From Bacillus sp. 103mf (GTDB taxonomy: Bacteria; Bacillota; Bacilli; Bacillales; Bacillaceae_G), in contig NZ_FPAF01000002.1 in assembly GCF_900116295.1 (NCBI RefSeq), positions 288,592-352,591 on the forward strand: a stretch of DNA of 64,000 nt, in the 5' to 3' direction. Positions 1 through 20,825 of this stretch are shown piece after piece. The notes below the pieces were generated by a model. That model was not told where the DNA came from. It did no database searches and was given only the letters and a program-made list of their open reading frames with translations. A program made the position numbers and the translations under genes. Numbering within the stretch: position 1 is the first letter of the stretch; the number at the start of each line of letters is the position of its first letter.

Positions 1-168
1 GTAATTGTATGACTGTAAAATTTCTGCTGTGCTGTCTGTTGACCCTCCATCAATGACGATATGCTCTAAATTAGGATAATCTTGAGAAAGCACACTTTCA
101 ATCGTTTCTTGAATAAACTTATCCTGTTGATAGGAAGGCGTAATAATACTAACAAGCGGTTGATCCAT
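1..168 (-). CDS. Glycosyltransferase family 2, N-terminal fragment (runs off window)
   Basis: The first 56 codons of a minus-strand gene are present and the rest lies beyond the left edge. The translation starts MDQPLVSIITPSYQQDKFIQ and continues through VLSQDYPNLEHIVIDGGSTDST, the standard nucleotide-sugar-binding start of GT-A fold GT2 enzymes. The ATG at 168 is preceded by GGAGG at 176-180 (read on the minus strand). It heads in the same direction as the three GT23-like genes upstream of it, so it is probably the last gene of the same glycosylation operon. The acceptor and sugar donor cannot be judged from this fragment. Confidence 0.85.
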   Translation of the reverse strand, partial: MDQPLVSIITPSYQQDKFIQETIESVLSQDYPNLEHIVIDGGSTDSTAEILQSYNY

Positions 169-210
169 GTATATACCTCCTTGTTTTCATTTCATTCTTA
201 ATAGGCTTAT

Positions 211-1149
211 TTATAGAAGCTTAATTGTTCCTTCCGGCCAATCTTTTAGACGACTGACTGCTACTGAAACATTAGAAGTATGATTACCGATAAAATAATC
301 GCATTTCATGGCTAGATACGTATCTCTAATAATATCTACACCTTTCTGTATTGTACTATAATAAGGTACACCACCATTATGCACAGAAACATGATCATAA
401 GGTGTTCGCTGGCAGTTAGTATAAATTAATTTATTACCATACAATCCTTTATATCTTGTCAAAATACTCTCAGAATCTGTTAGCAAAAAAATAGATGCTG
501 TCGGATTATTTATTAGATAATGATCAATTTCTTGCGGATATAAGTCATTAACCTGATATAAATCCGGACGCTCATTAATTTTGTCGCTACCACGAATATG
601 CACTCCTAAAATAGGATATTTATTTTCCGTATTTTTAAGATAAAAGTCTTCGATTTCAGCAGATAGATAAGGTTGCAATTTAAAGTATTTTCGATAAAGA
701 TAGTCATATACATCTTTAACCCCCAAACCATATGCCGGGTGACCTTCTTTAATCCATTGTGTAAGATAGTCTACATAAATGTGCACATTACTTACCAACA
801 CATTTTCAGGTCTACTAAAAACACTAGCTATAGCTACATACTCCAAATCTGTTAAATCTTTTGTACCTGGAAAACGTAAATTACTATAATTCCATTTTGA
901 TGGATAGCAGGTATAATTTTCTTTTTCAAGATCGTAAACGGAATAATTTGATACAGGCAAAAAATACATTGTAAATGCATCTTTAACGAATGGAGCCTCA
1001 GAAGCATACAAAGAATCGGCTCCCCAAAAAATAACGGGAATGCGGTCGGTGAGTTCAGCGATTAAAAGTTGACCGGCAACATGTGATATATCTGACCAGA
1101 AACCGTTTTCCCAAGCTTTGATTAACAAAAAGCGATTACTTTCGTTCAC
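211..1149 (-). CDS. GT23/FUT8-like glycosyltransferase (putative fucosyltransferase), paralogue 1
   Basis: A 312-residue protein, first of three tandem paralogues. HIRGSDK (residues 184-190) matches the GDP-fucose-binding HVRRTDK loop of FUT8/NodZ-type fucosyltransferases. It is followed by FLLTDSESIL (221-230) and KGVDIIRDTYLA...CDYFIG...SNVSVAV (269-298), which follow the order of FUT8's TD, GVILDIHFL and FSSQVCRVAYE segments. The family link is by remembered motifs. The start is GTG: the paralogue at 1259 has ATG two codons further up, but that codon is ATA here. AAGGAA precedes the GTG at normal spacing. No signal peptide or membrane segment is seen, so it should be cytoplasmic. GDP-fucose genes lie in the same island, which makes fucosyl transfer the leading guess; the acceptor is unknown. 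Confidence 0.72.
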   Translation of the reverse strand: MNESNRFLLIKAWENGFWSDISHVAGQLLIAELTDRIPVIFWGADSLYASEAPFVKDAFTMYFLPVSNYSVYDLEKENYTCYPSKWNYSNLRFPGTKDLTDLEYVAIASVFSRPENVLVSNVHIYVDYLTQWIKEGHPAYGLGVKDVYDYLYRKYFKLQPYLSAEIEDFYLKNTENKYPILGVHIRGSDKINERPDLYQVNDLYPQEIDHYLINNPTASIFLLTDSESILTRYKGLYGNKLIYTNCQRTPYDHVSVHNGGVPYYSTIQKGVDIIRDTYLAMKCDYFIGNHTSNVSVAVSRLKDWPEGTIKLL

Positions 1150-1258
1150 AAATATTCCTTCCCTTTATATTATATTGTATTGTATTGTATTACTAAGTTT
1201 TCTCGTCTTAAAGTTCTTTAGTAATTTCATTCGATACTGATTATATGCTGTCAATTTT

Positions 1259-2185
1259 TCAATACTGAATAAGCTTAATTGTCCCTGCCGGCCAATCTTT
1301 TAGACAACTAACCGCTACAGAAACATTAGAATAATCGGCACCAATAAAATGATCGCATTTCGTGGCAAGGTACGTGTCTTTAATAATATCTATACCCTTC
1401 TGTTGTTTGTTACAAAAAGGTAATCCTGCATGCACTGAAAAATTTTCATCAGATGTTCGTATGGAGTCGGTATAAATTAATTTATTACCATATAACTCTC
1501 GATATCTTGCCAAAATATTTTCACTATCTGTAAGCAAAAATATAGCAGCCGTCGGATTATTTTGTAGATAATTATCAATTTCAAGAGGATATAAGTTATT
1601 AAGCTGATATAAATGGGGAAACTCGTTAATTTTGTCACTGCCACGAATATGCAGCCCTAACAAAGGATGTTTATGCTTCATATTCTTAAAGTAAAAATCT
1701 TCGATTTCAGCAGATAAATAAGGTTGTAGTTTCAAATATTTTTGATACAGATAGCTGTATGCATCTGGATACCCCATACGACATGCTGGGTGACTTTTGT
1801 TAATCCATTGTGTAAAATCGTGTACATAAATGTGACGGGTACTTACCAATACATTTTCTAATTTAGTAAAATAATCAGCTACATTGACTACATCATGAAT
1901 ATCCCTCAATCGTAAATTATCACGATTCCATCTGGATGGATAATATGTGTAATACTCATGTGCAAGATCATCAACGGAGTAATTTGATACAGGCAAAAAA
2001 TACATCGTAAATGCGTCTTCAAACAGCGCATGTTCAGAAGCATACAAAGAACCTTCTCCCCAAAAAGTTACAGGAATACGACCGGTAAGTTCTGCGATCA
2101 AAAGCTGTCCGACAACATGCTCTACATCTGACCAGAAACCGCATCCCCACTCTTTGATTAGTAAAAAACGATTATTTTCGTTCAC
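1259..2185 (-). CDS. GT23/FUT8-like glycosyltransferase (putative fucosyltransferase), paralogue 2
   Basis: Second tandem paralogue, about 308 residues. It carries LGLHIRGSDKINE, FLLTDSENIL and KGIDIIKDTYLATKCDHFIG, so the whole FUT8-like core is intact. An ATG at 2191 would add two residues, but it falls directly against the AAGGAA ribosome-binding site. The GTG at 2185 keeps normal spacing and matches the starts of both sister genes, so I use it. The central segment (about residues 75-150) differs most from its sisters, while the N-terminal FLLIK.W..GFWS and the C-terminal third are nearly identical, as expected if acceptor-facing regions diverged after duplication. It is probably cotranscribed with its neighbours. 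Confidence 0.72.
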   Translation of the reverse strand: MNENNRFLLIKEWGCGFWSDVEHVVGQLLIAELTGRIPVTFWGEGSLYASEHALFEDAFTMYFLPVSNYSVDDLAHEYYTYYPSRWNRDNLRLRDIHDVVNVADYFTKLENVLVSTRHIYVHDFTQWINKSHPACRMGYPDAYSYLYQKYLKLQPYLSAEIEDFYFKNMKHKHPLLGLHIRGSDKINEFPHLYQLNNLYPLEIDNYLQNNPTAAIFLLTDSENILARYRELYGNKLIYTDSIRTSDENFSVHAGLPFCNKQQKGIDIIKDTYLATKCDHFIGADYSNVSVAVSCLKDWPAGTIKLIQY

Positions 2186-2270
2186 AAACATTCCTTCCCT
2201 TTATATATCTATGTCTTACCTTTCTTACTTAAAGCGAATTTAGTGACTTATTGAATATGCTGAACTTATT

Positions 2271-3203
2271 CTAGTGCTGAATAAGCTTGATTGTCCCTTC
2301 CGGCCAAGCTTTAAGGCGAAAGACCGCTAAGGAAACATTAGAATAACTGGCGCCAATAAAATGATCGCATTTCGTAGCGAGATAAGTATCTGTAATAATA
2401 TCAATACCCTTCAGCCTTGTCGGATAATAAGGTAACTGGTGCAGAGGAATAGTATCATAAGGTGTTCGCATACTGTCAGTACAGATTATTTTATCACCAT
2501 ATAACTCTTTATATTTTTCTAAAATACTCTCGGAATCTGTTAACAAAAGAATGGATGCCGTTGGGTTATTTTTTAGATAGTTATCAATTTCTTGCGGATA
2601 TAAGTCATTGAGTTGAGATAAATTCGGAATTTCATCAATTTTGTCACTGCCACGAATATGCACTCCTAAAATAGGGTGCTTATTTTTCATATTCTTAAGA
2701 TAAAAATCTTCGATTTCATCGGACAGATACGGTTGCAGTTTAAAATATTTATTATACAGATAGCGGTGTATATCATGAAACTCTAAACCATATACTGGGT
2801 GACTTTCGTTAATCCATTGGGTAAAGTAAAGTATAGACATGTGAACATTACTTACTAGTACATTTTCAGACCTGTTAAAAAGGCCAGGTATATCTTGTGC
2901 ACCTGAAAAATCTAATTCACCTGGCAAGCGTAAATTATTTCGATTCCATCTTGATGAATAGTAGGTGTAGTTTCCTTTTTCAAGATCATAAACGGAATAA
3001 TTTGATACAGGCAAAAAGTACATTGTAAATGCATCTTTAACTAATGGAGCCTCAGAAGCATACAAAGAATCGGCTCCCCAAAAAATAATAGGAATGCGGT
3101 CGGTGAGTTCAGCAATTAAAAGTTGACCAGCAACATGCTCCATAGCTGACCAGAAACCGCATTTCCAAGATTTGATTAGTAAAAAACGATTACTTTCAGT
3201 CAC
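2271..3203 (-). CDS. GT23/FUT8-like glycosyltransferase (putative fucosyltransferase), paralogue 3
   Basis: Third tandem paralogue, 310 residues and upstream-most on the minus strand. It keeps LGVHIRGSDKIDE, LLLTDSESIL and KGIDIITDTYLATKCDHFIGASYSNVS. The start is GTG at 3203 behind a strong GGGGAGG site about 8 bases upstream; this gene anchors the start choice for its two sisters. It is 86 bases from paralogue 2 and 105 bases from the FkbM methyltransferase gene upstream. The donor is inferred to be GDP-fucose from the family and from manC, gmd and fcl in the same island; neither activity nor acceptor can be read from sequence. Confidence 0.72.
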   Translation of the reverse strand: MTESNRFLLIKSWKCGFWSAMEHVAGQLLIAELTDRIPIIFWGADSLYASEAPLVKDAFTMYFLPVSNYSVYDLEKGNYTYYSSRWNRNNLRLPGELDFSGAQDIPGLFNRSENVLVSNVHMSILYFTQWINESHPVYGLEFHDIHRYLYNKYFKLQPYLSDEIEDFYLKNMKNKHPILGVHIRGSDKIDEIPNLSQLNDLYPQEIDNYLKNNPTASILLLTDSESILEKYKELYGDKIICTDSMRTPYDTIPLHQLPYYPTRLKGIDIITDTYLATKCDHFIGASYSNVSLAVFRLKAWPEGTIKLIQH

Positions 3204-3308: not shown

Positions 3309-3953
3309 CTATATGACTGAAAACTTACTCTTGTTATAAAGAAATATATCATCAAATGGTAATTTTTCTACTAACCTGTAACCCTGCATTGTTAGAAATT
3401 CTTGCACACTTTTCTCTTGATAATTATTTTCTGCTACAATACATTCAATCTTCACCTTTTTAAAATCGATTGACTGAAGAATTGCTAATTCCGCTCCTTC
3501 GCTGTCAATACTTAATAGATCAATATGAGTGACATTGTGATCATCTAAAATAGATTGCAGGGTATATGTTTTAACTTTGATAACCTTACAACTCCCACCA
3601 CGCTCTTGTAAGTCCATATCTATTCTTTTTTTATCCCTGAAATCAAATTTATCAACCAGGCCACTAAGCATTTCTACTGGTCCTTGTATCTGCAAAAAGT
3701 CTTGATATCCATTTTCATTAGATATTGCTCCTTCTATACAAATGCACTTCCTATTTTTACTCAATAATTCAAATACTTCTGGTATTGGCTCAACACAAAT
3801 CCCATTCCAATTTTTGTGCTGTTCAAAGAAATAGCTGTTACTGAGATGTATTCCATTATGAGCCCCAATGTCGACAAAAAATCCGTTTTCCATTCCCTGG
3901 AATATTTTTTCGTTCACAAATTTATCCTGGCCAATCTGGCTATAATATTGCAA
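3309..3953 (-). CDS. FkbM-family SAM-dependent methyltransferase
   Basis: 214 residues. The SAM-binding glycine motif FVDIGAHNG lies at residues 26-34, followed by YFFEQHKNWNGICVEPIPE and DLLSIDSEGAELAIL, the typical FkbM signature order. FkbM enzymes are O-methyltransferases, many acting on sugars or other secondary metabolites. Its position directly upstream of three putative fucosyltransferases suggests it methylates a sugar of the same glycan. The start is TTG at 3953: a stop codon lies only two codons upstream and a G-rich stretch serves as a weak ribosome-binding site, so no longer form is possible. The first obvious ATG (residue 21) would cut into the conserved fold. Confidence 0.8.
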   Translation of the reverse strand: MQYYSQIGQDKFVNEKIFQGMENGFFVDIGAHNGIHLSNSYFFEQHKNWNGICVEPIPEVFELLSKNRKCICIEGAISNENGYQDFLQIQGPVEMLSGLVDKFDFRDKKRIDMDLQERGGSCKVIKVKTYTLQSILDDHNVTHIDLLSIDSEGAELAILQSIDFKKVKIECIVAENNYQEKSVQEFLTMQGYRLVEKLPFDDIFLYNKSKFSVI

Positions 3954-4042: not shown

Positions 4043-4232
4043 TATATATATCCATTTTAATTTTTCGACATCTTTGTCTAGCTCTGCTATGCAAAATACA
4101 GCATGACCAGCTACTTGCTTTCTCCTTTTGTTTTAAACATTGCATGTGGTAGGAAAAGGCCCTGACCGTTTCTATACGCAGCCAGATGCTCTCGTTCCCC
4201 CTAAAAAGAAAGAGGTTTTTAACTTATATATA
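4043..4232 (+). repeat. Dispersed ~190 bp repeat, family 1 copy A
   Basis: Starts TATATATATCCATTTT..TTTTTCGACAT and contains the shared core ATGTGGTAGGAAAAGGCCCT and CCAGATGCTCTCG. It ends in an AT-rich segment that is an imperfect inverted copy of the start. It fills the gap between gmd and the FkbM gene, directly downstream of the gmd stop codon. Confidence 0.8.
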
Positions 4233-4239: not shown

Positions 4240-5244
<1,005 letters not shown>

Positions 5245-5337: not shown

Positions 5338-6777
5338 CTATATTTCCGAATAACAAGTTCTCATCATGAGCCGGATCTTCTCCTGAAAGTCCTTATTTTC
5401 TCGCTCCATGTTATTGGCAATATAGACGAGATGCTCAATTGCAGATTTATAGTTTTTTTGTCTAATATAAATGACTGCTACATTGTACCTTGTCATACTT
5501 AATGAGGGGTATACGGATAAAATGTTCAGATATATCTCTAATGCATCATCGATCAGATTTTCTGCATACAGTTCATTTCCATGTTCTAGCTCTATTTTAA
5601 TGATATCCTCCGTGGTTGATTTCGGATTCAATCCCTTCTGAGCTAACTGTTTCATTCTATCGGAAACGGCCTGTGCGCTCTTTTTCCAAGTAAATGAGGA
5701 TAAAATCTGCTTACTGGCTTTCTGCCCTTTCTCCTTAACCAAGGTACGATTCTCGTAGGCAAATCGCATTACCTTCTGCAAATCACTCCTGTCAATCGAT
5801 AGCCACCATGGATAATCTACCGTATCGAGATTACTTACTTTTTTCTCTGGTAAAGCAACTTCCTTTGAGGAAACGAAGAATGCTGTTTCTTTGTTACAAA
5901 AATCCCGACACGATCCTTTATCCGGTACAATTACCGGGATGCCGCAGGCCATTGCTTCTGCAATGGGCAACCCAAATCCTTCTCCCCTATATGGATGAAC
6001 TAAACAATCACACGCTTTATACAATCCCGCCAGCTCCGCTTCCGAAAATTCCTTATCCATGTATACAATACGTGGATTACTTGGATTAGACATTGCTTCA
6101 AGGATCATTTTCTCGAGTGTTATTCCTTTGTAAAAAGATTGAGTCCCAGTATCTTTGATGAACAAACAAACATCATCTTCTGCAGTAAATTCATTAAGAT
6201 AGGCCTGAAGCAGAATATCGATTCCCTTGCGGCCAATTGTTCCCCCAACGAATAGGAAGCGAAAAGAGGATGGTTCCAAAGCTAGAGCTTCAACACCGTT
6301 GTGAAATACTTTTTCATCTACACCAAGGGGAATCACATGAACTTTGTTTTCGGGAATGCCGCAGCGTATGTAGCTTTCCTTGTTGTATACGCTGTAAACC
6401 CAGATTTCATCTATCCAATACTTCATAGGGATATACCACTCTCTGGGGATTGCACCATATTCCCATGGTTGCATACAAATCCAATGCCTGCTTTTTGGCG
6501 TCGTCCAATCGGGTGGCCACTGGTGAACAATTGTAAAATCTGCTTCAGGAAAAGGCAAGAATCTCTCCTTTCCTCCTACTGCTGTAAGAGATTGAAAAAT
6601 CATCCTCTCTGACTCAGGCACCTTTATTCTAAGGTCAATTTGATGATCTTGCTGAAGATATTTACAAATACTCCGGTTTACGATTGCAAGACTATAATCG
6701 GCAAATTGAGGGCCAATCCAGTTTATTTTGAATGTTCCTATTTTCAACGCTATCCTCCTCGATTTTGATTCTGTCAT
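5338..6777 (-). CDS. GT4-family glycosyltransferase with C-terminal TPR-like tail
   Basis: 479 residues. The GT-B core is recognised by FLFVGGTIGRKGIDILL (174-190) and EGFGLPIAEAMACG (266-279), the E-x7-E nucleotide-sugar-binding element of GT4 enzymes. Residues from about 400 form helical repeats (HGNELYAENLIDDALEIYL; NVAVIYIRQKNYKSAIEHL) with the look of two TPR units, a likely protein-protein or acceptor-binding module. ATG 6777 follows AAGGTGAT. It diverges from another TPR-tailed glycosyltransferase at 6905, with about 127 bp between them. The donor could be GDP-mannose, made by manC here, but that is a guess. Confidence 0.85.
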   Translation of the reverse strand: MTESKSRRIALKIGTFKINWIGPQFADYSLAIVNRSICKYLQQDHQIDLRIKVPESERMIFQSLTAVGGKERFLPFPEADFTIVHQWPPDWTTPKSRHWICMQPWEYGAIPREWYIPMKYWIDEIWVYSVYNKESYIRCGIPENKVHVIPLGVDEKVFHNGVEALALEPSSFRFLFVGGTIGRKGIDILLQAYLNEFTAEDDVCLFIKDTGTQSFYKGITLEKMILEAMSNPSNPRIVYMDKEFSEAELAGLYKACDCLVHPYRGEGFGLPIAEAMACGIPVIVPDKGSCRDFCNKETAFFVSSKEVALPEKKVSNLDTVDYPWWLSIDRSDLQKVMRFAYENRTLVKEKGQKASKQILSSFTWKKSAQAVSDRMKQLAQKGLNPKSTTEDIIKIELEHGNELYAENLIDDALEIYLNILSVYPSLSMTRYNVAVIYIRQKNYKSAIEHLVYIANNMERENKDFQEKIRLMMRTCYSEI

Positions 6778-6904: not shown

Positions 6905-8065
6905 ATGAATTTGCGCCGACTGTCATTGTGTATGATTGTAAAAGATGAAGAGGATTGTATCGGCAAGTGCTTAAACAGTATAAAGGATGTTGTAGACGAG
7001 ATGATTATTGTAGATACAGGTTCTTCGGACCGAACCGTTGAAATTTGTAAATCATTCGGGGCTCAAGTTTTCGACTTCCCCTGGAATGGAAGCTTTTCAG
7101 CGGCCCGCAACTATGGTTTGGAGCGTGCAACGGGGGATTGGATTTTATGGTTGGATGCAGACGAAGAGGTAGACTCCTCTGATGCATATAAATTTCGTAA
7201 TGTCCTCTACTACGATGACTATCTCCTGTCCATTCATTTAATTAATTATTATGGTGATCTTCCAGATCCAAATAAAACATTCGATATTGCTCATACTCGT
7301 CTTTTCCGGAATTATAAAGGGTTTAAATTTATAAATAATATACATGAAATGCTTAACGCAGATGAAGTTCTGACGGAAAAGGACAAAACTCAGGCCATCA
7401 AAACTGTTCCAATTAAGGTATATCATTACGGATATTTGGATTATGTGAATAAAAATAAAAAGAAATTTGAACGTAATCTTGCAATGTTAAAAAATGAACT
7501 CGCCCAAAAAGATCACAGCCCTTGGATCGATTATCATATTGCAAGTGAATATTACCGTGTAGAGCAATATGACAAAGCATTCGATCATGTCAATCGTTCC
7601 ATTAGAGGTTTCTTGCAGGAGCTAAAAACACCGCCTTCCCTGCTGTACAGACTAAAGTATTCGATATTGATCGCCTCAGGGAGCATTGATGGAGCATGGC
7701 CCGGCATCGACAGAGCGGTTTCTCTCTATCCAGATTATGTAGATTTACACTTTTATAAGGGCTTGATCCTATACATCAAAGAATCGTATGAAGAAGCATT
7801 GGAGACATTTGAACACTGCCTTACATTGGGCGAAGAAAATTTACATCATCTTACGCTAAAGGGATTAGGTAGCTTTCAAGCTTTGTATTATATAGGCTGC
7901 TGCCTTGAAAAGCTCGGACAAATCGAGGCTGCTGCAAAGTCTTACACACTGGCTTCAAGTCTGTCACAAACATTCGATTCCCCTGTAGAGGCTCTACGTA
8001 AACTGAAGATAAAGCACCAAGATATTTTCAAGGAATTGGAATTACCAGCAGATTCAGATGTTTAA
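6905..8065 (+). CDS. GT2-family glycosyltransferase with TPR-like C-terminus
   Basis: 386 residues. The N-terminal GT-A domain begins LSLCMIVKDEEDCIGKCL and carries VDTGSSDRT and the metal-binding LDADEE (83-88). The rest, from about residue 200, is helical with TPR-type spacing (SEYYRVEQYDKAFDHV; HFYKGLILYIKESYEEALET; YYIGCCLEKLGQIEAAAKSY). This architecture resembles the SunS-type peptide glycosyltransferases of Bacillus, which modify proteins, but no bacteriocin precursor is seen here. The ribosome-binding site GGGAGGAAAGG is strong. The nearest downstream gene is the Thr-rich protein at 8204, a reasonable acceptor candidate. Confidence 0.85.
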   Translation: MNLRRLSLCMIVKDEEDCIGKCLNSIKDVVDEMIIVDTGSSDRTVEICKSFGAQVFDFPWNGSFSAARNYGLERATGDWILWLDADEEVDSSDAYKFRNVLYYDDYLLSIHLINYYGDLPDPNKTFDIAHTRLFRNYKGFKFINNIHEMLNADEVLTEKDKTQAIKTVPIKVYHYGYLDYVNKNKKKFERNLAMLKNELAQKDHSPWIDYHIASEYYRVEQYDKAFDHVNRSIRGFLQELKTPPSLLYRLKYSILIASGSIDGAWPGIDRAVSLYPDYVDLHFYKGLILYIKESYEEALETFEHCLTLGEENLHHLTLKGLGSFQALYYIGCCLEKLGQIEAAAKSYTLASSLSQTFDSPVEALRKLKIKHQDIFKELELPADSDV

Positions 8066-8203: not shown

Positions 8204-8845
8204 ATGTCTTTCCCGATAATTCCCAATATTACACCTACCATTTCAATTACTACTCCACAAACTATACCATTACTTTTCGCTTCCATTGCCTTTGAAGAAC
8301 TAGCTCTAGCTCACATCATCAATGCCGAAGCAGAGAAGCTTCAATTTGTTCTCGGAACATTACCGCCAGGAAGTACTACGCTTTCTCCTCCGGTAGTTAC
8401 GATATCCAATCTTCTTGCTGTTGACTCGAGTGTTCAAAGAACACTTCGTGATGTCATCAAGAAGGAAATGCTATTAGAGTTCAAGTTTGAAAATATACTA
8501 GATTTACTAGCGAGCAGTGCTACTTCTACACCAGGAAGCATATCAATCAATCCTGTTACCGGTGCAACGTGTGGTGTAACTCTTCCTATTTCAGGTACGT
8601 TGCTTACTGCCCTTGGCCTTCCGTTAGTAGGTGCACAAGTAACTCTTGCAGTAACTGGTGCTACACCGGGTGCTAATGTAACTTTCTCGACTACAACACC
8701 TATTACAGATTTGGCTGGTAACTTTAGCGTTTTAGGAACATTTATTGGTGTATCAGGTTCAAACTCTGTAACAATAACAGCTACCGCTACTTCATTAGGA
8801 GTTACAGTTACTACCTCTCAGACTATTACTTTCGTTTGTCCGTAA
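8204..8845 (+). CDS. Putative spore-surface protein: shared N-terminal domain plus Thr/Ser-rich Ig-like domain
   Basis: 213 residues, two parts. Residues 1-105 start with MSFPIIPNITPTISITT and contain LLFASIAFEELALAHIINAE and a VQRTLRDVIKKEMLLEFKFE helix, shared with the proteins at 12800 and 13683. Residues from about 110 are extremely rich in Thr, Ser, Val and Gly with regular beta-strand alternation (TVAVTGAT-type turns, DLAGNFSVLG), typical of an Ig-like or carboxypeptidase-regulatory fold, and end TFVCP. There is no signal peptide, which fits a protein made in the mother cell and assembled on the spore. The many Thr/Ser residues make it the best glycan acceptor candidate in the window. 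AGAGGTGAT precedes ATG 8204. I do not know an established name. Confidence 0.75.
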   Translation: MSFPIIPNITPTISITTPQTIPLLFASIAFEELALAHIINAEAEKLQFVLGTLPPGSTTLSPPVVTISNLLAVDSSVQRTLRDVIKKEMLLEFKFENILDLLASSATSTPGSISINPVTGATCGVTLPISGTLLTALGLPLVGAQVTLAVTGATPGANVTFSTTTPITDLAGNFSVLGTFIGVSGSNSVTITATATSLGVTVTTSQTITFVCP

Positions 8846-9188: not shown

Positions 9189-9374
9189 GATAAATCATTT
9201 TCATTTTTCGACATATAAGTCGCTGCTATGCAGAATACAACATGACCGCTACTTGCTTTCTCCCTTTGTTTTTAACCATTGCATGTGGCAGGAAAAGGCC
9301 CTGTCCGCTTCTACATACGGCCAGATGCTCTCGTCCCTCTAAAAGGAAAGTTTTTTCAATTTGCATTTATATAC
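9189..9374 (+). repeat. Dispersed ~190 bp repeat, family 1 copy B
   Basis: Contains TTTTTCGACATATAAGTCGC, then the GCATGTGGCAGGAAAAGGCC core and CCAGATGCTCTCG, ending GCATTTATATA. Lies in the 1.2 kb gene-poor stretch between the Ig-like gene and fcl, which otherwise holds a terminator, a possible broken small gene, a hairpin element and copy C. Confidence 0.8.
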
Positions 9375-9688: not shown

Positions 9689-9847
9689 TTATCCCGCTAT
9701 TTGTGGGCAGTAAGACCCCCACCTCAAGATTCAGAGAGAAGCAAAGAAGATAGGTGGGGGTCTTACTGCCCGTAAAAGCCCGATTGGGCGGGCTTTCCGT
9801 CAGTGGGGGATGAAGCCCCCCCCCACTGACGGAGAAGTTTCACTTTA
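9689..9847 (-). repeat. Hairpin-rich dispersed repeat, family 3 (full-length copy)
   Basis: Read on the minus strand it starts AAAGTGAAACTTC. It then forms a CCGTCAGTGGGGG...CCCCCACTGACGG hairpin, then GCCCGCCCAATCGGGC, then a long hairpin GGGCAGTAAGACCCCCACCT...AGGTGGGGGTCTTACTGCCC, and ends GCGGGATAAAAA. The best-preserved relative is at 55373-55526. The strong structure and lack of coding suggest a PATE/MITE-type element. Confidence 0.75.
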
Positions 9848-10026
9848 TTTTTCGACATCTAGCTCCCTGCTAGGCTGAATAAAAAGTAACCTGTTCTCGT
9901 TTTCTCTTTTGGTTTTTACTTCGCATGTGGCAGAGAAAAGCTCTGACCGCTTCTATGCACGGCCAGATGCTCTCGCCCGCTTAAAAAGGGGGGCTTTATG
10001 TCGGATTTTTAATTAGCATATATATA
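9843..10026 (+). repeat. Dispersed ~190 bp repeat, family 1 copy C
   Basis: Starts at the end of the family 3 element (TTTATTTTTCGACATCTAG), includes GCATGTGGCAGAGAAAAGCT and CACGGCCAGATGCTCTCGCC, and ends GCATATATATAGG just before the fcl stop codon. Confidence 0.75.
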
Positions 10027-10041: not shown

Positions 10042-12455
<2,414 letters not shown>

Positions 12456-12479
12456 ATTATACACCCCGATGTCATACAT

Positions 12480-12799: not shown

Positions 12800-13123
12800 T
12801 TGTCTTTCCCGAACATTCCGAATATTACACCGACTATTTCGGTTACTACTGCACAGACTGTACCGTTACTTTTGTCTTCTATTGCCCTTGAGGAATTAGC
12901 CCTGGCTCACATCATCAATGCTGAGGCAGAAAAGCTTCAATTTGTTCTCGGAACATTACCGACAACAACTGCACTTTCTCCTCCGGTCGTTTCGTTATCT
13001 AACCTTCTTGCTATTGACTCAAGTGTTCAAAGAACACTTCGTGACGTTATCAAGAAAGAAATGCTACTGCAGTTCAAATTTGAAAATGTCCTTGATTTGA
13101 TAGCAATCACTCCGCTTCCTTAA
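12800..13123 (+). CDS. Small putative spore-surface protein, NAEAEK family, type 1a
   Basis: 107 residues starting MSFPNIPNITPTISVTTAQT, with LLLSSIALEELALAHIINAE, then SVQRTLRDVIKKEMLLQFKFE, ending LIAITPLP. It is nearly the N-terminal domain of the 8204 protein without the Ig-like part. The start is TTG 12800, set by GAAAGAGGTGA upstream; the same TTG and ribosome-binding site are kept in the copy at 13683. Two predicted helices with conserved Glu/His (EELALAH) could bind metal or pack as a bundle; function is unknown. The gene, its 5' region and its 3' terminator are duplicated at 13555-14200. A weak sigma-K-like promoter lies upstream. Confidence 0.75.
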   Translation: MSFPNIPNITPTISVTTAQTVPLLLSSIALEELALAHIINAEAEKLQFVLGTLPTTTALSPPVVSLSNLLAIDSSVQRTLRDVIKKEMLLQFKFENVLDLIAITPLP

Positions 13124-13682: not shown

Positions 13683-14006
13683 TTGTCTTTCCCGAACATT
13701 CCGAATATTACCCCGACTATTTCGGTTACTACTGCACAGACTATACCGTTACTTTTGTCTTCTATTGCCCTTGAGGAATTAGCTCTGGCTCACATCATCA
13801 ATGCCGAGGCAGAAAAGATTCAATTTGTTCTCGGAACATTACGGTCAAAAAGTAAATTTACTCCTTGCCGGGTCACGTTATCCAATCTTCTTGATATCGA
13901 CGCAAGTGTTCAAAGAACACTTCGTGATGTTATCAAGAAGGAAATACTACTGCAGTTCAAATTTGAAAATGTCCTTGATTTGATAGCAATCACTCCGCTT
14001 CCTTAA
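13683..14006 (+). CDS. Small putative spore-surface protein, NAEAEK family, type 1b
   Basis: 107 residues, a close duplicate of the 12800 protein with the same N-terminus and the same ITPLP end. Divergence is concentrated in the middle: LPTTTALSPPVV there becomes LRSKSKFTPCRV here, which introduces a Cys. The start is TTG 13683 behind AAAGAGGTGA. Upstream (13555-13682) repeats the sequence before 12800, including CAAGCCCA and ACTAAAGAAAGAGGTGAATT. A candidate sigma-K -10 (CATACAATT) lies about 36 bases before the start. Confidence 0.73.
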   Translation: MSFPNIPNITPTISVTTAQTIPLLLSSIALEELALAHIINAEAEKIQFVLGTLRSKSKFTPCRVTLSNLLDIDASVQRTLRDVIKKEILLQFKFENVLDLIAITPLP

Positions 14007-14297: not shown

Positions 14298-14326
14298 CAC
14301 AGAAAATATAGGCGAATCATACAATA
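14298..14326 (+). promoter_or_regulatory. Sigma-K promoter for the 14362 gene
   Basis: CACA (14298-14301), exactly 16 bases, then CATACAATA (14318-14326). This fits the Bacillus mother-cell sigma-K consensus mACm-N16-CATAnnnTA at every position. The start codon is 36 bases downstream. It is repeated unchanged at 15997-16025. Confidence 0.78.
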
Positions 14327-14361: not shown

Positions 14362-14691
14362 TTGAGTATGCCAACAATACCAGCAGAACCCCATCGTCCA
14401 AATCAGAAGCAAGTTATTATAGATTTATTGGAATCAATAGCTTTAGAGGAAATTGCTTTATCACACCTTTTAAACGCTGAAGCTGAAAAAATGCAAGCCT
14501 TTGTTGGAAAATGTTTAGATTTTCCAACATGTCCTACAAACCGGCAAATTCTTCAATTCAACAGAGAAGCAACCAGATTTGTTGAAACGGTCTTAATGAA
14601 AGAATGGCTATTATTAAGAAAGTTCGAAAATGTAACGGATTTAATCCAAAGCCGGCGTAGAGTATGCTGTAAATGTCGTCCGTCAAAATAA
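14362..14691 (+). CDS. Small putative spore-surface protein, NAEAEK family, type 2a
   Basis: 109 residues. It shares the pattern of the type 1 proteins (LLESIALEEIALSHLLNAEA, then ETVLMKEWLLLRKFENVTDL) but starts MSMPTIPAEPHRPNQKQ and ends in a basic Cys-rich tail, RRRVCCKCRPSK. Clustered cysteines at the end are common in coat and exosporium crust proteins that crosslink. TTG 14362 follows GGAAGGTG at good spacing. A sigma-K promoter directly upstream predicts late mother-cell expression. The gene and about 145 bases of its 5' region are duplicated at 15911-16390. Confidence 0.78.
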   Translation: MSMPTIPAEPHRPNQKQVIIDLLESIALEEIALSHLLNAEAEKMQAFVGKCLDFPTCPTNRQILQFNREATRFVETVLMKEWLLLRKFENVTDLIQSRRRVCCKCRPSK

Positions 14692-15019: not shown

Positions 15020-15841
15020 TTGAGTCAATATCAGCATTTCATTTTTCTCGATTATCCAATCAAACCAACCCCCCGTTTTGGGTGGAATAAACCTCCGCAT
15101 GCAAAATTATATGAAATTATTAATAGAAATCGGTTGTTATATGAGGAATACCTAAAAAAATTCTTGAAGCATAAAGAAAAATTTATTCACATCAATAGGC
15201 ATGAAAATAAGGCATTCCCTAATTGTCCTTTTTGGATAAACGGATGGTTGCCTGGCCTAGATTCAGTAGCTATTTACGGATTCTTATGTGAGAATAACCC
15301 AATGCGATATTACGAGATAGGATCTGGAAATTCAACAAAATTTGCAAAACAAGCTATTAAGGATCATAACCTTCAAACTGAGATTCTCTCTATCGATCCT
15401 TCTCCAAGAGCCGAAATTGATTCCATTTGTGATCATGTTGTGAGACAGCCTCTTGAAAACGTTGATTTGCATATTTTTGATGATTTGGAAACAGGGGATA
15501 TTCTTTTTATAGATAATAGCCATCGTTCTTTTATGAATTCGGATGTGACCGTTATTTTTCTAGAAATTTTACCAAGATTAAAACCCGGCGTTTTTATTGA
15601 GTTCCATGATATATATCTTCCTCATGATTACCCTCAAGAATGGATTACACGATATTACAATGAACAATATTTACTTGCATCCACCTTATTGGCGGATGGA
15701 AATAAGTATGAAATTATATTTCCGGGCATGTTTATTGCTCAAGATCCTGAGTTAAGTAAGGTCTTGGCTCCCTTATGGGACGATCCAAAGATGCAAGGCG
15801 TCGAACGGCATGGAGGATCTTTCTGGATCAAAACAAAATAA
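15020..15841 (+). CDS. Class I SAM-dependent methyltransferase
   Basis: 273 residues. The SAM-binding motif YYEIGSGNSTKFAK (97-110) and the following LSIDPSPRAEID and GDILFIDNSHR mark a class I methyltransferase, probably of the Methyltransf_24 type. The N-terminal ~95 residues lack an obvious domain. TTG 15020 follows AAGGAGGAATT. It lies between two copies of the type 2 small protein gene, so it may modify them or their glycan. The substrate cannot be told; sugar O-methylation is inferred from the setting only. Confidence 0.8.
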   Translation: MSQYQHFIFLDYPIKPTPRFGWNKPPHAKLYEIINRNRLLYEEYLKKFLKHKEKFIHINRHENKAFPNCPFWINGWLPGLDSVAIYGFLCENNPMRYYEIGSGNSTKFAKQAIKDHNLQTEILSIDPSPRAEIDSICDHVVRQPLENVDLHIFDDLETGDILFIDNSHRSFMNSDVTVIFLEILPRLKPGVFIEFHDIYLPHDYPQEWITRYYNEQYLLASTLLADGNKYEIIFPGMFIAQDPELSKVLAPLWDDPKMQGVERHGGSFWIKTK

Positions 15842-15996: not shown

Positions 15997-16025
15997 CACA
16001 GAAAATATAGGCGAATCATACAATA
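15997..16025 (+). promoter_or_regulatory. Sigma-K promoter for the 16061 gene
   Basis: CACA-N16-CATACAATA, identical to the promoter at 14298 and at the same distance (36 bases) from the TTG start. Confidence 0.78.
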
Positions 16026-16060: not shown

Positions 16061-16390
16061 TTGAGTATGCCAACAATACCGGCAGAACCCAATCGGCCAA
16101 ATCAGAAGCAAGTTATCATAGATTTATTGGAATCAATAGCATTAGAGGAGATTGCTTTATCACATCTTTTAAACGCTGAAGCTGAAAAAATGCAAGCCTT
16201 TGTTGGAAAATGTTTAGATTTCCCTACACATCCTACAAACAGTCAAATTCTTCAATTCAACAGAGAAGCAACCAGATTTGTTGAAACGGTCTTAATGAAA
16301 GAATGGCTATTATTAAGAAAGTTTGAAAATGTAACGGATTTAATCCAAAGCCGACGTAGAGTATGCTGTAAATGTCGTCCATCAAAATAA
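16061..16390 (+). CDS. Small putative spore-surface protein, NAEAEK family, type 2b
   Basis: 109 residues, differing from the 14362 protein at only a few positions (for example THPTNSQ for TCPTNRQ), with the same CCKCRPSK tail. One Cys of the 14362 protein is replaced by His. The TTG start, ribosome-binding site and sigma-K promoter are all retained. The upstream block starting near 15911 is almost identical to 14217-14361, so this is a recent duplication that leapt over or trapped the methyltransferase gene. Confidence 0.78.
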   Translation: MSMPTIPAEPNRPNQKQVIIDLLESIALEEIALSHLLNAEAEKMQAFVGKCLDFPTHPTNSQILQFNREATRFVETVLMKEWLLLRKFENVTDLIQSRRRVCCKCRPSK

Positions 16391-16422: not shown

Positions 16423-16929
16423 GTGTTGTTCTATCTATTTACTGAAGAGAACTATGTATCTTCCTTACGGTCAATCTTTCATATGGAACGTTCTATTTAC
16501 AAGTATTTACATGCAGCACATGATATGGTGGCAATTATTAAAAATCATCATACAGATGAAGATGATGATTTATTGGTTACTATAAAAACTTGTATATTCC
16601 CACTCTTACAAACCATTGCTGACTTAGAAGGAATTTTACTTAGGAAATCTTTTTATATCATTGAACATACTTGCCCTCGTACACAAATAGCAACGATACC
16701 TTTTATATCGAAAGAGAGTTCTCATGAGGACACCTTGAAAACAAAAACTTTATTATATGATATAAAAAAAAATATTAAACAATTATGCCCTAATCGCAAT
16801 CAGATAATCGATGAAACAGTTGAAAAAATTCTACATCTAGAAACTAGGCGGAAACAAGTGTTTGTTCCTAACTACCAATGGAAAAAAAATAATGATCCTT
16901 CGAAAGTATTGCTGACAATAAAATCTTAA
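16423..16929 (+). CDS. Uncharacterised protein, 168 residues
   Basis: I do not recognise this protein. It is helical and slightly acidic in the middle (HHTDEDDDLL), and includes LLQTIADLEGILLRKSFYII, which faintly echoes the KEWLLLRKFENV helix of the preceding small proteins. It begins 33 bases after the 16061 gene with AAGGAGGGG upstream and should be transcribed from the same sigma-K promoter. TTG 16423 or the GTG three bases earlier are equally possible starts. No signal peptide or membrane segment. A role on the spore surface is inferred from context. Confidence 0.65.
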   Translation: MLFYLFTEENYVSSLRSIFHMERSIYKYLHAAHDMVAIIKNHHTDEDDDLLVTIKTCIFPLLQTIADLEGILLRKSFYIIEHTCPRTQIATIPFISKESSHEDTLKTKTLLYDIKKNIKQLCPNRNQIIDETVEKILHLETRRKQVFVPNYQWKKNNDPSKVLLTIKS

Positions 16930-16987
16930 AATTCCGCTTTCGCAGTCTCATATAAAACAACAATCCTTGATATATAATACAAAAAGA

Positions 16988-17054: not shown

Positions 17055-17253
17055 CCCTATGAGAACGAAAGAACTCCCTTTTATGCAACTTCCGTCTGAG
17101 TTACGAGTCAAATCTATGTTTGTCTATAATCGACAGAAACGGCAGAATTGACCGCACGTATTGAAAATAGACCTTTTTATTATATCGAAAAATAAAGTCA
17201 AGCATATACATAATATGTCACATTTTAACATTAAGAAAGGGGGTATTTTTAAT

Positions 17254-17841
17254 ATGGAAAATAATAAAAGTATAAATGAACTATTAAGAATTGTAGATGG
17301 TATCGAAGGATGGTTGGATTTTTCCGAACAATTCGCACTATTACATTTACCTGCACTGGTTGACCATCTATACGGAGATATAGTTGAAATCGGTTCATAT
17401 AAAGGAAAGAGTACCATTGCATTAGGTTTTGGCAGTTCTTTAATGAGCACAAAAAAGCGTCCGATTTATGCCATTGACCCATTTATACCGGATAACGAAT
17501 TTTATCATGGAAATTATTTTGATATTTTCTGGGATAATATAAAGAATCATGGCCTAGAAGATAATGTTATTCCAATTAAAAAGTATAGTACAGAAGCTTA
17601 TGGTGATTGTCCTAAATCAATAGTAGCTTTATTTATTGATGGTAATCACGAATATTCAAGTGTTAAACATGATATTATTCATTATGCACCGAGAGTTGTA
17701 AAAGGAGGCTTGATTGCTTTCCATGACTATGGTCATCATGATAACCCAGGGGTAGCTCAAGCCATACATGAAGTTTGCACGAATGAAGATTATGAGTATT
17801 TCGGTTTATATGATTCCTTACTCATAATCCGAAAACTATAA
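17254..17841 (+). CDS. Class I SAM-dependent methyltransferase (Methyltransf_24 type)
   Basis: 195 residues from ATG 17254, chosen because AAGAAAGGGGG lies 8-10 bases upstream; a longer frame to 17161 has no ribosome-binding site. VEIGSYKGKST (44-54) is the SAM-binding loop, and YAIDPFIPDN, ALFIDGNHEYSSVKHDI and GGLIAFHDYG are typical of this group, many of which are sugar or macrolide O-methyltransferases. The stop codon runs directly into a family 3 repeat. It is a third methyltransferase in an island with few other biosynthetic genes, so it could methylate the same glycan. Confidence 0.83.
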   Translation: MENNKSINELLRIVDGIEGWLDFSEQFALLHLPALVDHLYGDIVEIGSYKGKSTIALGFGSSLMSTKKRPIYAIDPFIPDNEFYHGNYFDIFWDNIKNHGLEDNVIPIKKYSTEAYGDCPKSIVALFIDGNHEYSSVKHDIIHYAPRVVKGGLIAFHDYGHHDNPGVAQAIHEVCTNEDYEYFGLYDSLLIIRKL

Positions 17842-17932
17842 AGTGAAACTTCCATCAGTGGGGTGCTTCATCCCCCGTTGATGGCTAGTTGAACCAATGA
17901 GGGGCTTACTGCCCGTTTGTTACATAAATAGA
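17838..17932 (+). repeat. Hairpin-rich dispersed repeat, family 3 (shortened copy)
   Basis: ATAAAGTGAAACTTCCATCAG overlaps the methyltransferase stop codon. The first hairpin (CCATCAGTGGGG / CCCCCGTTGATGG) is intact, but the second is reduced to GGGCTTACTGCCCG. The following 250 bases to 18179 hold no gene. Confidence 0.7.
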
Positions 17933-18179
17933 AGCCCCACATTTAGCTGGTAGGAATTCTTACCTTTACAGTTTGATGGATAGAAAAAATAAAAGTCTTA
18001 AGATCATGAAATCGTTAGAGGTTGTTATATAAATATTCCACTTTACTCTTAATTGTGTTTATTACTAATATACAAATACACCAACAATTAATATAGGCTG
18101 CTTGCCAGATTATAACATGAGGGGGAATCAGAGCTTTAACTTCGTTTGACATAATAAGATTCCCCTTTCGATGGAATGA

Positions 18180-19175
18180 TTAAAAAACAGTCCAAATCTT
18201 AAATACATTCCTACTCATTTGCATCCCGCTTTGTTGTAGAAACTCCTGTACATAAGATGCCTCCGGACAATCGAGTATAACAATGGCATCGACATTTCCT
18301 TTTTTATAATGATTAAAGACTTCTGGCATTTTTCTTATAAGTTCTTGCGTCACATATCTCTGCACCTGTAATCCTGTAAAAGGTAAAATATGATGTTCCA
18401 AATATCGGCAAGCGCTTTCCGACCCTACTACCAGCACTTTAGCTTGACGGTCCAATTGGCGGCTCAACCAACTCTGAATATGAAATGCACAGATTTCCAT
18501 AACCTCTCTGCAAGTAGCGGCCTCATCCCTATGGCAGAGAGATTCTGGATTCACCCGATATTCATACATCACTTCTTCTAGTTTAGGGATGTCGCCAACC
18601 TCCAACATGCGAATCCACAGGTCATGATCCTGACAGATGGCATAACGGACATTATAACCGCCTATTTGGTCGAAAACTTTCTTGGAAAAAGTTACTGATC
18701 CATGAATGAAAGGCGGAGCCAAAAAACGATGTTCCATCATCTGCTCCCTTGTTCGGACTCTGTTGGTTCCTTCAATATCACAAAGCAGCTGGGAAGGGAT
18801 AGGCGCTTTTGCTGAAATGCAGCGGATAAATGAACTGACGCCGATACAACCAGGATTGGATTGAATAAAACGAGCTTGCTTTTCTATTCTTTGGGGTAAA
18901 CTGATATCGTCAGCATCCTGCCGGACAATCCATTCTCCCTTCGCCATCGAAATACCAAAGTTTAGTCCATATGACAATCCATAATTTTTCTCCAGATGAT
19001 AAACTCGTATCCGATTATCGTCAACACTATCTAATATTTGTCTAGTTTGATCAGTAGATCCGTCATTCACAATGATACATTCAAAATCTGGGTAAGTTTG
19101 ATTCAGAATACTGTCTATACTTTCTGTCAAATATTCCTCACCGTTGTAAACAGACATAACTACAGAGAACTTCAA
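18180..19175 (-). CDS. Glycosyltransferase family 2
   Basis: 331 residues. KFSVVMSVYNGEEYL opens the GT-A fold; VNDGSTDQT (37-45) and the metal-binding QDADD (86-90) are intact, followed by FIHGSVTFSKKVFDQIGGY and QDHDLWIRM. The last ~110 residues (CRYLEHHILPFTG...ILDCPEASYVQEF) look like a small alpha/beta domain with an unusual VLVVGSESACRYL motif, an extra nucleotide-binding-like module. TTG 19175 is chosen because GGAGGGTGAT sits just before it; an upstream GTG would place the ribosome-binding site inside the gene. Transcribed away from its neighbours. Confidence 0.83.
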   Translation of the reverse strand: MKFSVVMSVYNGEEYLTESIDSILNQTYPDFECIIVNDGSTDQTRQILDSVDDNRIRVYHLEKNYGLSYGLNFGISMAKGEWIVRQDADDISLPQRIEKQARFIQSNPGCIGVSSFIRCISAKAPIPSQLLCDIEGTNRVRTREQMMEHRFLAPPFIHGSVTFSKKVFDQIGGYNVRYAICQDHDLWIRMLEVGDIPKLEEVMYEYRVNPESLCHRDEAATCREVMEICAFHIQSWLSRQLDRQAKVLVVGSESACRYLEHHILPFTGLQVQRYVTQELIRKMPEVFNHYKKGNVDAIVILDCPEASYVQEFLQQSGMQMSRNVFKIWTVF

Positions 19176-19536
19176 GTCATCACCCTCCACCCATAGATTT
19201 AACTAGGAATTAGCAATGATCATAAAAAAAGCATTGCACTTCATGCTATGTCCCTCTATTTGAGCTCAACACAATTTAATCGCCGATAATCGAAAATAAG
19301 CCATCAATAGAACATGCAATTTTGCTATTTTTATAAAAATATATAAGAAAACAGACAATATTCCTTTCTCTTGCATATAAGATAATAATATACATAAAAT
19401 CCCATTTATTTCCCAACAAATGATTTATGCCGTTCTTGAACATGTCTTAAACCTCTTTATCGAACATTTATGAATACAGTATGTCAGGTAAATTAATTTT
19501 ATGCTCAGCGAATAAATGAAAAAAGGAAGAAATCTG
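19176..19536. other. Intergenic, no gene supported
   Basis: AT-rich divergent promoter region between two oppositely oriented genes. No convincing operator or repeat was seen. Confidence 0.5.
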
Positions 19537-19770
19537 ATGAAGGTTGACTGGTTCAGAGTAGATGCAGAGTTCACCGATGTTACTTTAGCTAAACAAATCG
19601 TTTCCCAACTGAATCAAAAGATCCTAATCACGGCGGCACTCAGAGATCATATACGCGGTAATGCCTATGACTTCTATAACAAATATGGCATATTGATTCA
19701 TAATCCTATACCAATTCAGGGACGATTTAATGCTATCTATCTCAATTTACGGAATGGCGTTAACCTATGA
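19537..19770 (+). CDS. Uncharacterised small protein, 77 residues
   Basis: I do not recognise this protein. It starts MKVDWFRVDAEFTDVTLAKQ and ends NAIYLNLRNGVNL, with no membrane segment. ATG 19537 follows AAAAGGAAG at normal spacing. A stop at 19770 precedes the GT2 gene by 83 bases, so the two could be cotranscribed. It may be a short accessory protein or the remnant of a larger gene. Confidence 0.5.
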   Translation: MKVDWFRVDAEFTDVTLAKQIVSQLNQKILITAALRDHIRGNAYDFYNKYGILIHNPIPIQGRFNAIYLNLRNGVNL

Positions 19771-19853
19771 ACAAATTGAAAGAGTGACTTATACCCTTCG
19801 AACGATTATAAGTTGCGTTGCCAGCAAGAAAAAACAGAAAGGCGGAAACAGCG

Positions 19854-20825
19854 ATGCTTAAACTCTCCTTGATTGTTCCCACTTACAACAGGGAAAAGTA
19901 CCTGACCAAAGCACTGCTCTCTTTCCTAAATCAGAGCCTCTCACCCGATAAATATGAAATTCTGATTATAGATAACAATTCTACGGATCAAACAGCCCTA
20001 ACAGTGCGAAAAATCATGGAATCTGCGACCGTTTCTTGGAAATATCTAAAAGAAATGAAACAAGGGCTCCATTATGTGAGAAACAAAGGTATTCTGGAAG
20101 CAAAAGGAGACATCGTGATTTTTGGGGATGACGATATCATCGCCAGCAGCAATTGGTTGGAGAACATTATGCAAGAATTCGAGCAACATCCGCAAACCGG
20201 GATTTGCGGCGGTAAAATTAAACCCTTATGGCAATCACAACCTGAAAACTGGGTTTACGATTACGGATCGCCCGAGATTCATCCTTTATTCGCCTATCTC
20301 GATTATGGAGACGAAAGGGTGTCGCTTCACCATGAATATGTGTTCGGATGCAATTTTGCTATCCGGCGTGATTTAGCCATCCAGATTGGCGGAAGTTTTC
20401 CGGATACATTCCCCACTCATTTGAAGCATCTCTCTGGCACAGGAGAAAACGCCATGATTGATAATACAAGAAAGCTCAATTATGAAATCATTTATTTGCC
20501 TGAAGCCCTCGTATATCATCATATAGATTCATTACGAATGACTTTGAACTATTTTATTGACCGTTATGAGCGTTGGGCTGTTGAAGATGTATTTGCTTTA
20601 TTTAGAAAGAAGGAAAAAAAACAAGCAGCTGCAAAACTAGTACAAATCGCTCTAGATAGATTGTCTCGTCTAGAAATGGACAGCGCCAATAAATTCAATC
20701 CTGAATACTATCGAATTATTCATAAGCGATACGCCTATCAAATGATCCAACAAACAGTCCGAGTCTTAACAGAGCCTTCCCTCTATCATCATATTAGCCT
20801 AGTCAGTTACTTAGAGCAGCCTTAA
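19854..20825 (+). CDS. Glycosyltransferase family 2
   Basis: 323 residues from ATG 19854 (AAAGGCGG upstream). LKLSLIVPTYNREKYL opens the GT-A domain; IDNNSTDQT (40-48) and the metal-binding GDDD (91-94) are present, with FGCNFAIRRDLAIQIGGSFPD and GTGENAMIDNTRKL matching the acceptor side of GT2 enzymes. The C-terminal ~90 residues are helical and basic (FRKKEKKQAAAKLVQ), perhaps membrane- or partner-binding. Last gene of the island; a strong terminator separates it from fabI. Confidence 0.85.
   Translation: MLKLSLIVPTYNREKYLTKALLSFLNQSLSPDKYEILIIDNNSTDQTALTVRKIMESATVSWKYLKEMKQGLHYVRNKGILEAKGDIVIFGDDDIIASSNWLENIMQEFEQHPQTGICGGKIKPLWQSQPENWVYDYGSPEIHPLFAYLDYGDERVSLHHEYVFGCNFAIRRDLAIQIGGSFPDTFPTHLKHLSGTGENAMIDNTRKLNYEIIYLPEALVYHHIDSLRMTLNYFIDRYERWAVEDVFALFRKKEKKQAAAKLVQIALDRLSRLEMDSANKFNPEYYRIIHKRYAYQMIQQTVRVLTEPSLYHHISLVSYLEQP

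Follow-up and report, generated by a model that had tools for sequence, protein, structure and literature searches.

Positions 1-20825 of the window analysed here (the whole 64,000-nt stretch of contig NZ_FPAF01000002.1, to which all coordinates refer and which is probably a Bacillus chromosome segment) form a gene island to the left of fabI. We read this island, with roughly even confidence, as a spore-fibre glycosylation locus, in which a conserved core of A-ENA-type endospore-appendage subunits and a family 2 glycosyltransferase (GT2) is combined with an unusual module of GDP-fucose synthesis genes and family 23 glycosyltransferases (GT23). A role of the island at the spore surface is well supported, and we infer that fucose is transferred to the fibres. 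The original prediction for this DNA, drawn up from its letters alone, had proposed a dedicated system that makes and transfers fucose on spore-surface proteins; this is partly supported and can now be put in a sharper form. Pfam and NCBIfam scans of 20 island open reading frames (ORFs) gave the families listed in Table 1 and confirmed the predicted gene content with small corrections, one being that the glycosyltransferase at 1-168, taken for a fragment, is an ORF truncated by the left edge of the window and no broken gene. At the DNA level, fabI was matched at best at 74% over about 800 bases among 151 genomes of one Bacilli family and at 69% among 39 genomes of another order; its source is probably a Bacillus close to the B. 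cereus group yet not within it.

Five small paralogous proteins of the island have no Pfam or NCBIfam family above cut-off. A profile built from all five matched PDB entry 9ihh ('Ex vivo spore-silk A-ENA fibers') with E 1e-26 over profile positions 1-105, the next-best PDB matches having E 0.55 or worse. As judged by this homology, the five are A-ENA-type endospore-appendage subunits. The proteins encoded at 12800, 16061 and 8204 were also queried singly, those at 13683 and 14362 through the profile only. Alignment with the window subunits covers almost all of the 101-aa chain of 9ihh, which was compared by its entry title and the printed alignment; unlike that entry, the window has five paralogues set in a sugar island, one of them with a Ser/Thr-rich extension. 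This extension, in the 8204 protein, comprises 106 aa with 33% Ser plus Thr, and the protein is a candidate tip, anchor or, in the reading preferred here, main glycan carrier or acceptor. An AlphaFold2 model of the 12800 protein, computed from an alignment of 5 sequences, is a two-helix hairpin predicted with moderate confidence (pLDDT 75.7, pTM 0.55). Two other identities were considered and rejected: none of the five has a DUF4183 match at E up to 0.1, as F-ENA would, and none has a TIGR03720 or collagen-repeat match in Pfam or NCBIfam, as exosporium-leader/BclA proteins would. F-ENA fibres of the B. cereus group (F-Anchor, F-BclA) nevertheless share a logic with the window despite their use of DUF4183, since a small fibre subunit is accompanied there by larger proteins that carry the same kind of domain or hook on through collagen/BclA-like parts (PMC11952670, in the portion available).

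The A-ENA family is tied to sporulation. In a survey sample of 398 genomes drawn evenly from the class Bacilli, it was present in 58 and SpoIVA in 269, with all 58 A-ENA-positive genomes among the latter (hypergeometric probability 1.4e-11, which assumes independent draws and is too small given the kinship of the genomes); the family goes with spore-formers. It is also modular. In Ruminiclostridium sufflavum and R. hungatei, collagen-like proteins begin with the A-ENA domain, and one of these proteins carries BclA_C at 146 bits versus a cut-off of 38. Among 10 long A-ENA-domain proteins scanned, collagen scored above cut-off in three and below it in two more, and other long members have Ser/Thr repeats or Cys-containing domains.

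Promoter sequences point in the same direction. Of 158 A-ENA gene hits, 124 were used after near-identical upstream regions had been dropped, and the family-wide sigma-K-like pattern AC-N14-18-CATANNNTA occurred exactly before 13 of these 124; for neighbouring genes the count was 5 of 366, and for far genes 1 of 215. When the -10 element was permitted a single mismatch, the three counts were 52/124, 48/366 and 16/215, respectively, and a smaller run gave exact sites at 14/77 versus 3/195. Sigma-K control is held likely for S-/L-ENA fibres too (PMC12921279, in the portion available). The sigma-K promoters predicted for two of the small genes are indeed exact sites, with shuffle P values (Table 1) that are weak when taken alone, the two upstream regions being near-copies; a further exact site precedes manC (shuffle P 0.025; 20 window genes tested). 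The genomic neighbourhood agrees with the expectation, based on B. subtilis, that this flank of fabI holds coat genes: CotO and CotZ were found there in 5/5 relatives scanned (6 regions fetched), a sample that excludes B. subtilis itself. Neither was among the 20 island ORFs scanned, and in the window strain they may lie further left than the window. Taken together, the homology to 9ihh, the tie of A-ENA to sporulation, the fusions to collagen and BclA_C and the enrichment of sigma-K-like sites support the proposed spore-surface location.

The second element of the core is a GT2 enzyme with tetratricopeptide repeats (TPR), hereafter GT2-TPR, encoded at 6905-8065. It matched the SunS family of NCBIfam with E 4e-24 (85 bits, under the equivalog cut-off of 350), and through GT2-domain homology its solved relatives in the PDB are GmaR (E 1.3e-32) and SunS (E 4e-19). 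Both are protein or peptide glycosyltransferases; GmaR acts on flagellin and SunS on sublancin. By this resemblance GT2-TPR is a candidate initiating protein O-glycosyltransferase. Its pairing with A-ENA was observed directly in 51 loci around A-ENA genes from 50 of the 58 positive genomes. One genome contributed two loci, several loci were shortened by contig ends (8.8-19.9 kb), and G027, G147, G148, G171, G263, G369, G370 and G379 were left out because no gene position was available; as controls we used 20 regions at a distance of 200 kb, taken from 20 of the 50. Calling homologues by tblastn at 150 bits or more, we found GT2-TPR (43-78% identity) in 29 of the 51 loci and in 0/20 controls. 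The same search detected the island's family 4 glycosyltransferase with TPR matches (GT4-TPR) in four loci, gmd in three and manC in two, the gmd-bearing loci all being among the four with GT4-TPR. Among the literature matches listed, this pairing of A-ENA with GT2-TPR was not seen, and it appears to be new.

The pairing reaches into the Clostridia. In R. sufflavum and R. hungatei (L174, L175), a GT2-TPR of ~51% identity is encoded directly upstream of the collagen-like A-ENA-domain gene, an order like that of SgtA-BclA3 in Clostridioides difficile, in which SgtA, encoded just upstream of bclA3, adds O-linked N-acetylglucosamine (O-GlcNAc) to Thr of BclA3 (available portion of PMC7157674). In the window, too, the gene of the transferase directly precedes that of a spore-surface protein; the differences from SgtA-BclA3 are that the partner is an A-ENA subunit rather than a collagen stalk and that there is a fucose module in addition. 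The start of SgtA implied by a primer in the available portion of the same paper, MITISLCMI, resembles SLCMIV of the window enzyme, nine residues being no test of family membership.

Around this core the sugar genes vary. Locus L062 repeats the window core (GT4-TPR, a divergent GT2-TPR and A-ENA) at 74-82% identity, and where the window has fcl and GT23 it carries the genes of dTDP-rhamnose (cut-offs exceeded by RmlB and RmlD, best match for RmlA) plus gmd with another short-chain dehydrogenase/reductase. L063 and L066 each hold gmd (just below and above cut-off, respectively) and a manC-like gene. The sugar module is thus swapped between A-ENA loci, being of rhamnose type in L062 and of GDP-fucose type in the window. 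Since gmd is present in 3 of the 51 loci, GDP-mannose-derived sugars recur at some of them, while fcl together with GT23 is found only in the window.

The full GDP-L-fucose branch that had been claimed for the island is supported, since gmd exceeds the TIGR01472 cut-off and fcl matches solved GDP-L-fucose synthases. With E up to 1e-30, fcl has 18 PDB matches, each bearing the name GDP-fucose synthase or that of the same enzyme, and its best NCBIfam match is NF047922 (GDP-L-fucose synthase; 311 bits, below the cut-off of 500). It aligns with these synthases over most of its length, and the conserved C-x-YP and SHVxPAL stretches presumably hold the catalytic Cys and His. The best NCBIfam match of manC is TIGR01479 (233 bits, below the cut-off of 373).

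The identification of the three tandem GT23-like proteins as fucosyltransferases holds at the level of family, by their FUT8 matches and by the linkage of their relatives to gmd and fcl; their activity is putative. Compared with one of the copies, the other two show 67 and 72% identity. Two of the three exceed the cut-off of FUT8_N_cat (PF19745, 27.6 bits) and the third reaches 27.1 bits, and a profile of the three matched alpha-1,6-fucosyltransferase in the PDB (E 5.5e-6) over residues ~151-292, the region with HxRxxDK and TD. The HxRxSDK and TD motifs are kept in all three. The copies share with FUT8 these PF19745 and PDB matches; they differ from it in having 310-312 aa that match only profile positions 333-472 of 499, and in a Gly in place of the second Arg of the 'HVRR' stretch.

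Relatives of GT23 were sought with two peptide patterns in GTDB species genomes, and 24 loci were obtained, none titled Bacillus. Both gmd and fcl were present in 17 of them, and the other 7 were shorter than 7 kb or ended within 2 kb of the match. In the Bacilli sample GT23 was found in 1/398 genomes, that of Paenibacillus sedimenti, the centre genome of the sample, which had been chosen for having GT23. In a tree of 54 proteins (out of 68 rows, i.e., 3 from the window and 65 others), the three window copies group together (98/98), with the single Paenibacillus copy as their sister (100/97). This indicates that the window trio was duplicated apart from the clostridial triplets, and the idea of a common triplication of both was dropped. 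An 817-aa ORF near the Paenibacillus GT23, gmd and fcl genes (L001:18421-20874) is built of similar short units over its first 60 residues and is possibly a surface protein of another kind. In two clostridial GT23 clusters (L018:5184-7231 and L004:4007-6085), a pair of ORFs reads by eye like pyruvate-dehydrogenase-type E1 subunits, a hint that an unusual sugar or acid may accompany fucose.

In the scheme that we propose, the five A-ENA subunits would assemble as fibres on the spore late in sporulation. In the mother cell, GT2-TPR would start the glycan by attaching a sugar, perhaps GlcNAc, to Ser/Thr residues of A-ENA proteins or of the 8204 tail, and the GT4-TPR and GT2 enzymes would lengthen the chain. 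GDP-L-fucose would be supplied by manC, gmd and fcl, the three GT23 enzymes would add fucose at different positions, and the methyltransferases may cap the fucose or the chain. Homology and linkage underlie the fibre and GT2-TPR half of this scheme, and the GT23, fucose and methylation half follows from the families of the enzymes and the closeness of their genes; the sequence of steps, the first sugar and the fibres as acceptor are likewise conjectural. It is possible, and we offer it tentatively for Bacilli and some Clostridia, that A-ENA fibres are glycoproteins as a rule, with their own SgtA/GmaR-like initiator and a swappable sugar module, and that this Bacillus has gained bacterial FUT8 relatives which add (methyl)fucose to the fibres at three kinds of position.

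Several observations weigh against a spore-fibre glycosylation locus. None of the 24 GT23 loci gave an A-ENA-type match by tblastn, and the A-ENA family was found in only two of five GT23 genomes searched whole; because A-ENA is missing from these loci and from the other three genomes, GT23 can have another acceptor. Conversely, tblastn detected GT23 in 0/51 and fcl in 0/51 of the other A-ENA loci, so A-ENA fibres as a class do not require fucose, and 22 of the 51 have no GT2-TPR in the fetched region. Both fcl and manC fall under NCBIfam equivalog cut-offs. Exact sigma-K-like sites were seen at only 13 of 124 A-ENA genes, and within the window three of the five A-ENA genes as well as the GT23, gmd, fcl and GT2-TPR genes are without one. 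The notion of a 'dedicated' system is doubtful for the core, as many Bacilli combine A-ENA with GT2-TPR but lack GT23 and fcl, and as GT23 occurs with gmd and fcl in genomes lacking the A-ENA family.

The strongest rival explanation, which we regard as possible though clearly short of probable, is that the fucose ends up elsewhere in the spore envelope, either in a polysaccharide of the exosporium or crust or in a glycan on different spore proteins whose genes lie beyond the left edge of the window; the A-ENA genes would then be mere neighbours in a spore-envelope hot spot. The coat genes on this side of fabI, the GT23 loci without an A-ENA match and the fact that the left end of the island lies beyond the window all fit this view, as do the crust glycans of B. 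subtilis, which are made by operons of glycosyltransferase and nucleotide-sugar genes (PMC7439481, in the portion available). The recurrent pairing of A-ENA with GT2-TPR and the likeness of the latter to the protein and peptide glycosyltransferases GmaR and SunS argue instead for the fibres, and the polysaccharide variant is further opposed by the lack of any polysaccharide flippase or polymerase match in the Pfam scan of the 20 island ORFs.

It is unlikely, in our assessment, that a GDP-fucose/GT23 block was gained horizontally beside an ordinary A-ENA locus and has no working link with it or is no longer used. The rarity of GT23 in the Bacilli sample, the position of its nearest relative in P. 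sedimenti, and the interspersed repeats and apparent insertion-element remnants between the blocks (see below) speak for such a gain, but the island genes read as intact ORFs, the HxRxSDK and TD motifs are kept in all three GT23 copies, and gmd and manC-like genes recur at other A-ENA loci (L063, L066). Quite improbable is a vegetative island for flagellin or S-layer glycosylation that lies beside spore genes by chance. Fucose-like sugars are known on flagella and S-layers, and GmaR is the best solved relative of GT2-TPR; against this, no flagellin or S-layer match was found by Pfam among the 20 island ORFs scanned, and the sugar genes are interspersed with five genes for fibre subunits, whose family is tied to sporulation.

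Sugar-supply and transferase genes for the spore surface are likewise known for the BclA exosporium glycoprotein of B. anthracis/B. cereus and for the sps/cge genes of the B. subtilis crust. According to the portions of the sources available, BclA carries rhamnose and anthrose and the crust legionaminic acid and rhamnose (PMC7439481), as opposed to the fucose predicted for the island, in which no TIGR03720 leader match was found. The literature matches listed, from a coverage that leaves out bioRxiv and most subscription journals, include no A-ENA fibre paper and no fucosyltransferase acting on Bacillus spores. The words 'A-ENA' and 'silk' are both absent from the texts of PMC11952670 and PMC12921279, and 'fucose' appears in PMC4191935 only as a standard for high-performance liquid chromatography and in PMC6222408 only in the title of a reference. 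Neither A-ENA fibres nor FUT8-type enzymes are new in themselves; what appears to be new is their co-occurrence in one locus, not seen among the matches listed. Three points are of wider interest. Five genes gain a likely identity as spore-fibre subunits, a widespread appendage family is tied to a probable glycosyltransferase partner, and the island offers a testable case of fucose being made and placed on spore fibres by bacterial FUT8 relatives. Strains of the B. cereus group reportedly have fucose in their spores. In B. subtilis, the sugars of the spore surface affect adhesion and hydrophilicity, as far as the available part of the source describes, and a sugar module that varies between species would therefore help explain differing spore surfaces.

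Table 1. Features of the island and its surroundings in the 64,000-nt window
Feature	Position	Strand	Evidence or remark
GT2 glycosyltransferase, N-terminal 56 aa only	1-168	minus	PF00535 E 1.2e-14; cut by window edge
GT23/FUT8-like putative fucosyltransferase, copy c	211-1149	minus	PF19745 27.1 bits, just below cut-off 27.6
GT23/FUT8-like putative fucosyltransferase, copy b	1259-2191	minus	PF19745 29.3 bits; PF10250 O-FucT E 4e-5 (23.8 bits, below cut-off)
GT23/FUT8-like putative fucosyltransferase, copy a	2271-3203	minus	PF19745 32.3 bits
FkbM-family methyltransferase	3309-3953	minus	PF05050 E 1.7e-18; TIGR01444 above cut-off
gmd, GDP-mannose 4,6-dehydratase	4240-5238	minus	TIGR01472 424 bits vs cut-off 415; likely start 5202
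GT4 glycosyltransferase, weak C-terminal TPR matches (GT4-TPR)	5338-6777	minus	PF13692 E 1.1e-15
GT2-TPR glycosyltransferase, candidate initiating protein O-glycosyltransferase	6905-8065	plus	PF00535, TPR_1/TPR_2
A-ENA-type domain with Ser/Thr-rich C-terminal extension	8204-8845	plus	PDB 9ihh E 8e-18, residues 6-107
fcl/wcaG, GDP-L-fucose synthase	10042-11076	minus	PDB 7ll6 E 1e-74, 1bsv E 2e-60; likely start 10983
manC-type mannose-1-phosphate guanylyltransferase/mannose-6-phosphate isomerase	11073-12479	minus	PF00483, PF01050 (PMI domain); likely start 12455
A-ENA-type subunit	12800-13123	plus	PDB 9ihh E 3e-18, residues 6-103 of 107
A-ENA-type subunit	13683-14006	plus	86% identical to 12800 protein; matched 9ihh via profile
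Sigma-K-like site AC-N17-CATACAATA	14299-14326	plus	44 nt before 14362 gene; shuffle P 0.04
A-ENA-type subunit, second subfamily, Cys-containing C-terminus	14362-14691	plus	matched 9ihh via profile
Methyltransferase (Methyltransf_24)	15020-15841	plus	PF13578 E 2.8e-13
Sigma-K-like site, near-copy of 14299 site	15998-16025	plus	44 nt before 16061 gene; shuffle P 0.045
A-ENA-type subunit, second subfamily, Cys-containing C-terminus	16061-16390	plus	PDB 9ihh E 5e-13
168-aa protein, directly after second-subfamily A-ENA gene	16423-16929	plus	no Pfam/NCBIfam match
Methyltransferase (Methyltransf_24/TylF)	17161-17841	plus	PF13578 E 1.5e-18; likely start 17254
GT2 glycosyltransferase	18180-19190	minus	PF00535 E 8.5e-38
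GT2 glycosyltransferase	19818-20825	plus	PF00535 E 4e-29
fabI	20884-21660	minus	~85% identity (214/253 aligned residues) to solved FabI 5ycr/2qio, which we take to be B. cereus-group proteins
~160-nt repeat copies	4043-4225, 9191-9360, 9838-10000, 31590-31770, 55560-55740		
~160-nt repeat copies	21850-22010, 35720-35890	minus	
~160-nt repeat, partial copies	near 36944-37018, 48805-48901, 60840-60915		

The 168-aa protein is only hinted at as a conserved A-ENA partner. Proteins of similar size follow second-subfamily A-ENA genes in L062, L063, L064 and L066, with weak similarity to it (best E 0.001), and relatives were found in 6 of the 51 A-ENA loci (including L071 and L075) and in 0/20 controls, 4 of the 6 having supplied the profile.

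An interspersed repeat of ~160 nt is present in at least 7 copies in the window, at 75-84% identity to one copy. By ORF coordinates it is mostly intergenic. It has no Rfam match at the gathering cut-off, and its weak consensus fold has 2 doubly changed pairs. Over 50 bases, the copy at 9191 matches a Bacillus arachidis plasmid at 90%, the sole matching record in a plasmid search with 1-20825. Strong inverted repeats at 9700-9833 and about 17850-17920, with similar words 3' of the methyltransferase gene ending at 17841, look by eye like the ends of a lost insertion element. Outside the island, an RsaE/RoxS small RNA and a T-box leader, the latter upstream of a trpS-like gene, were found at 29280-29399 and 45042-45258; both are ordinary.

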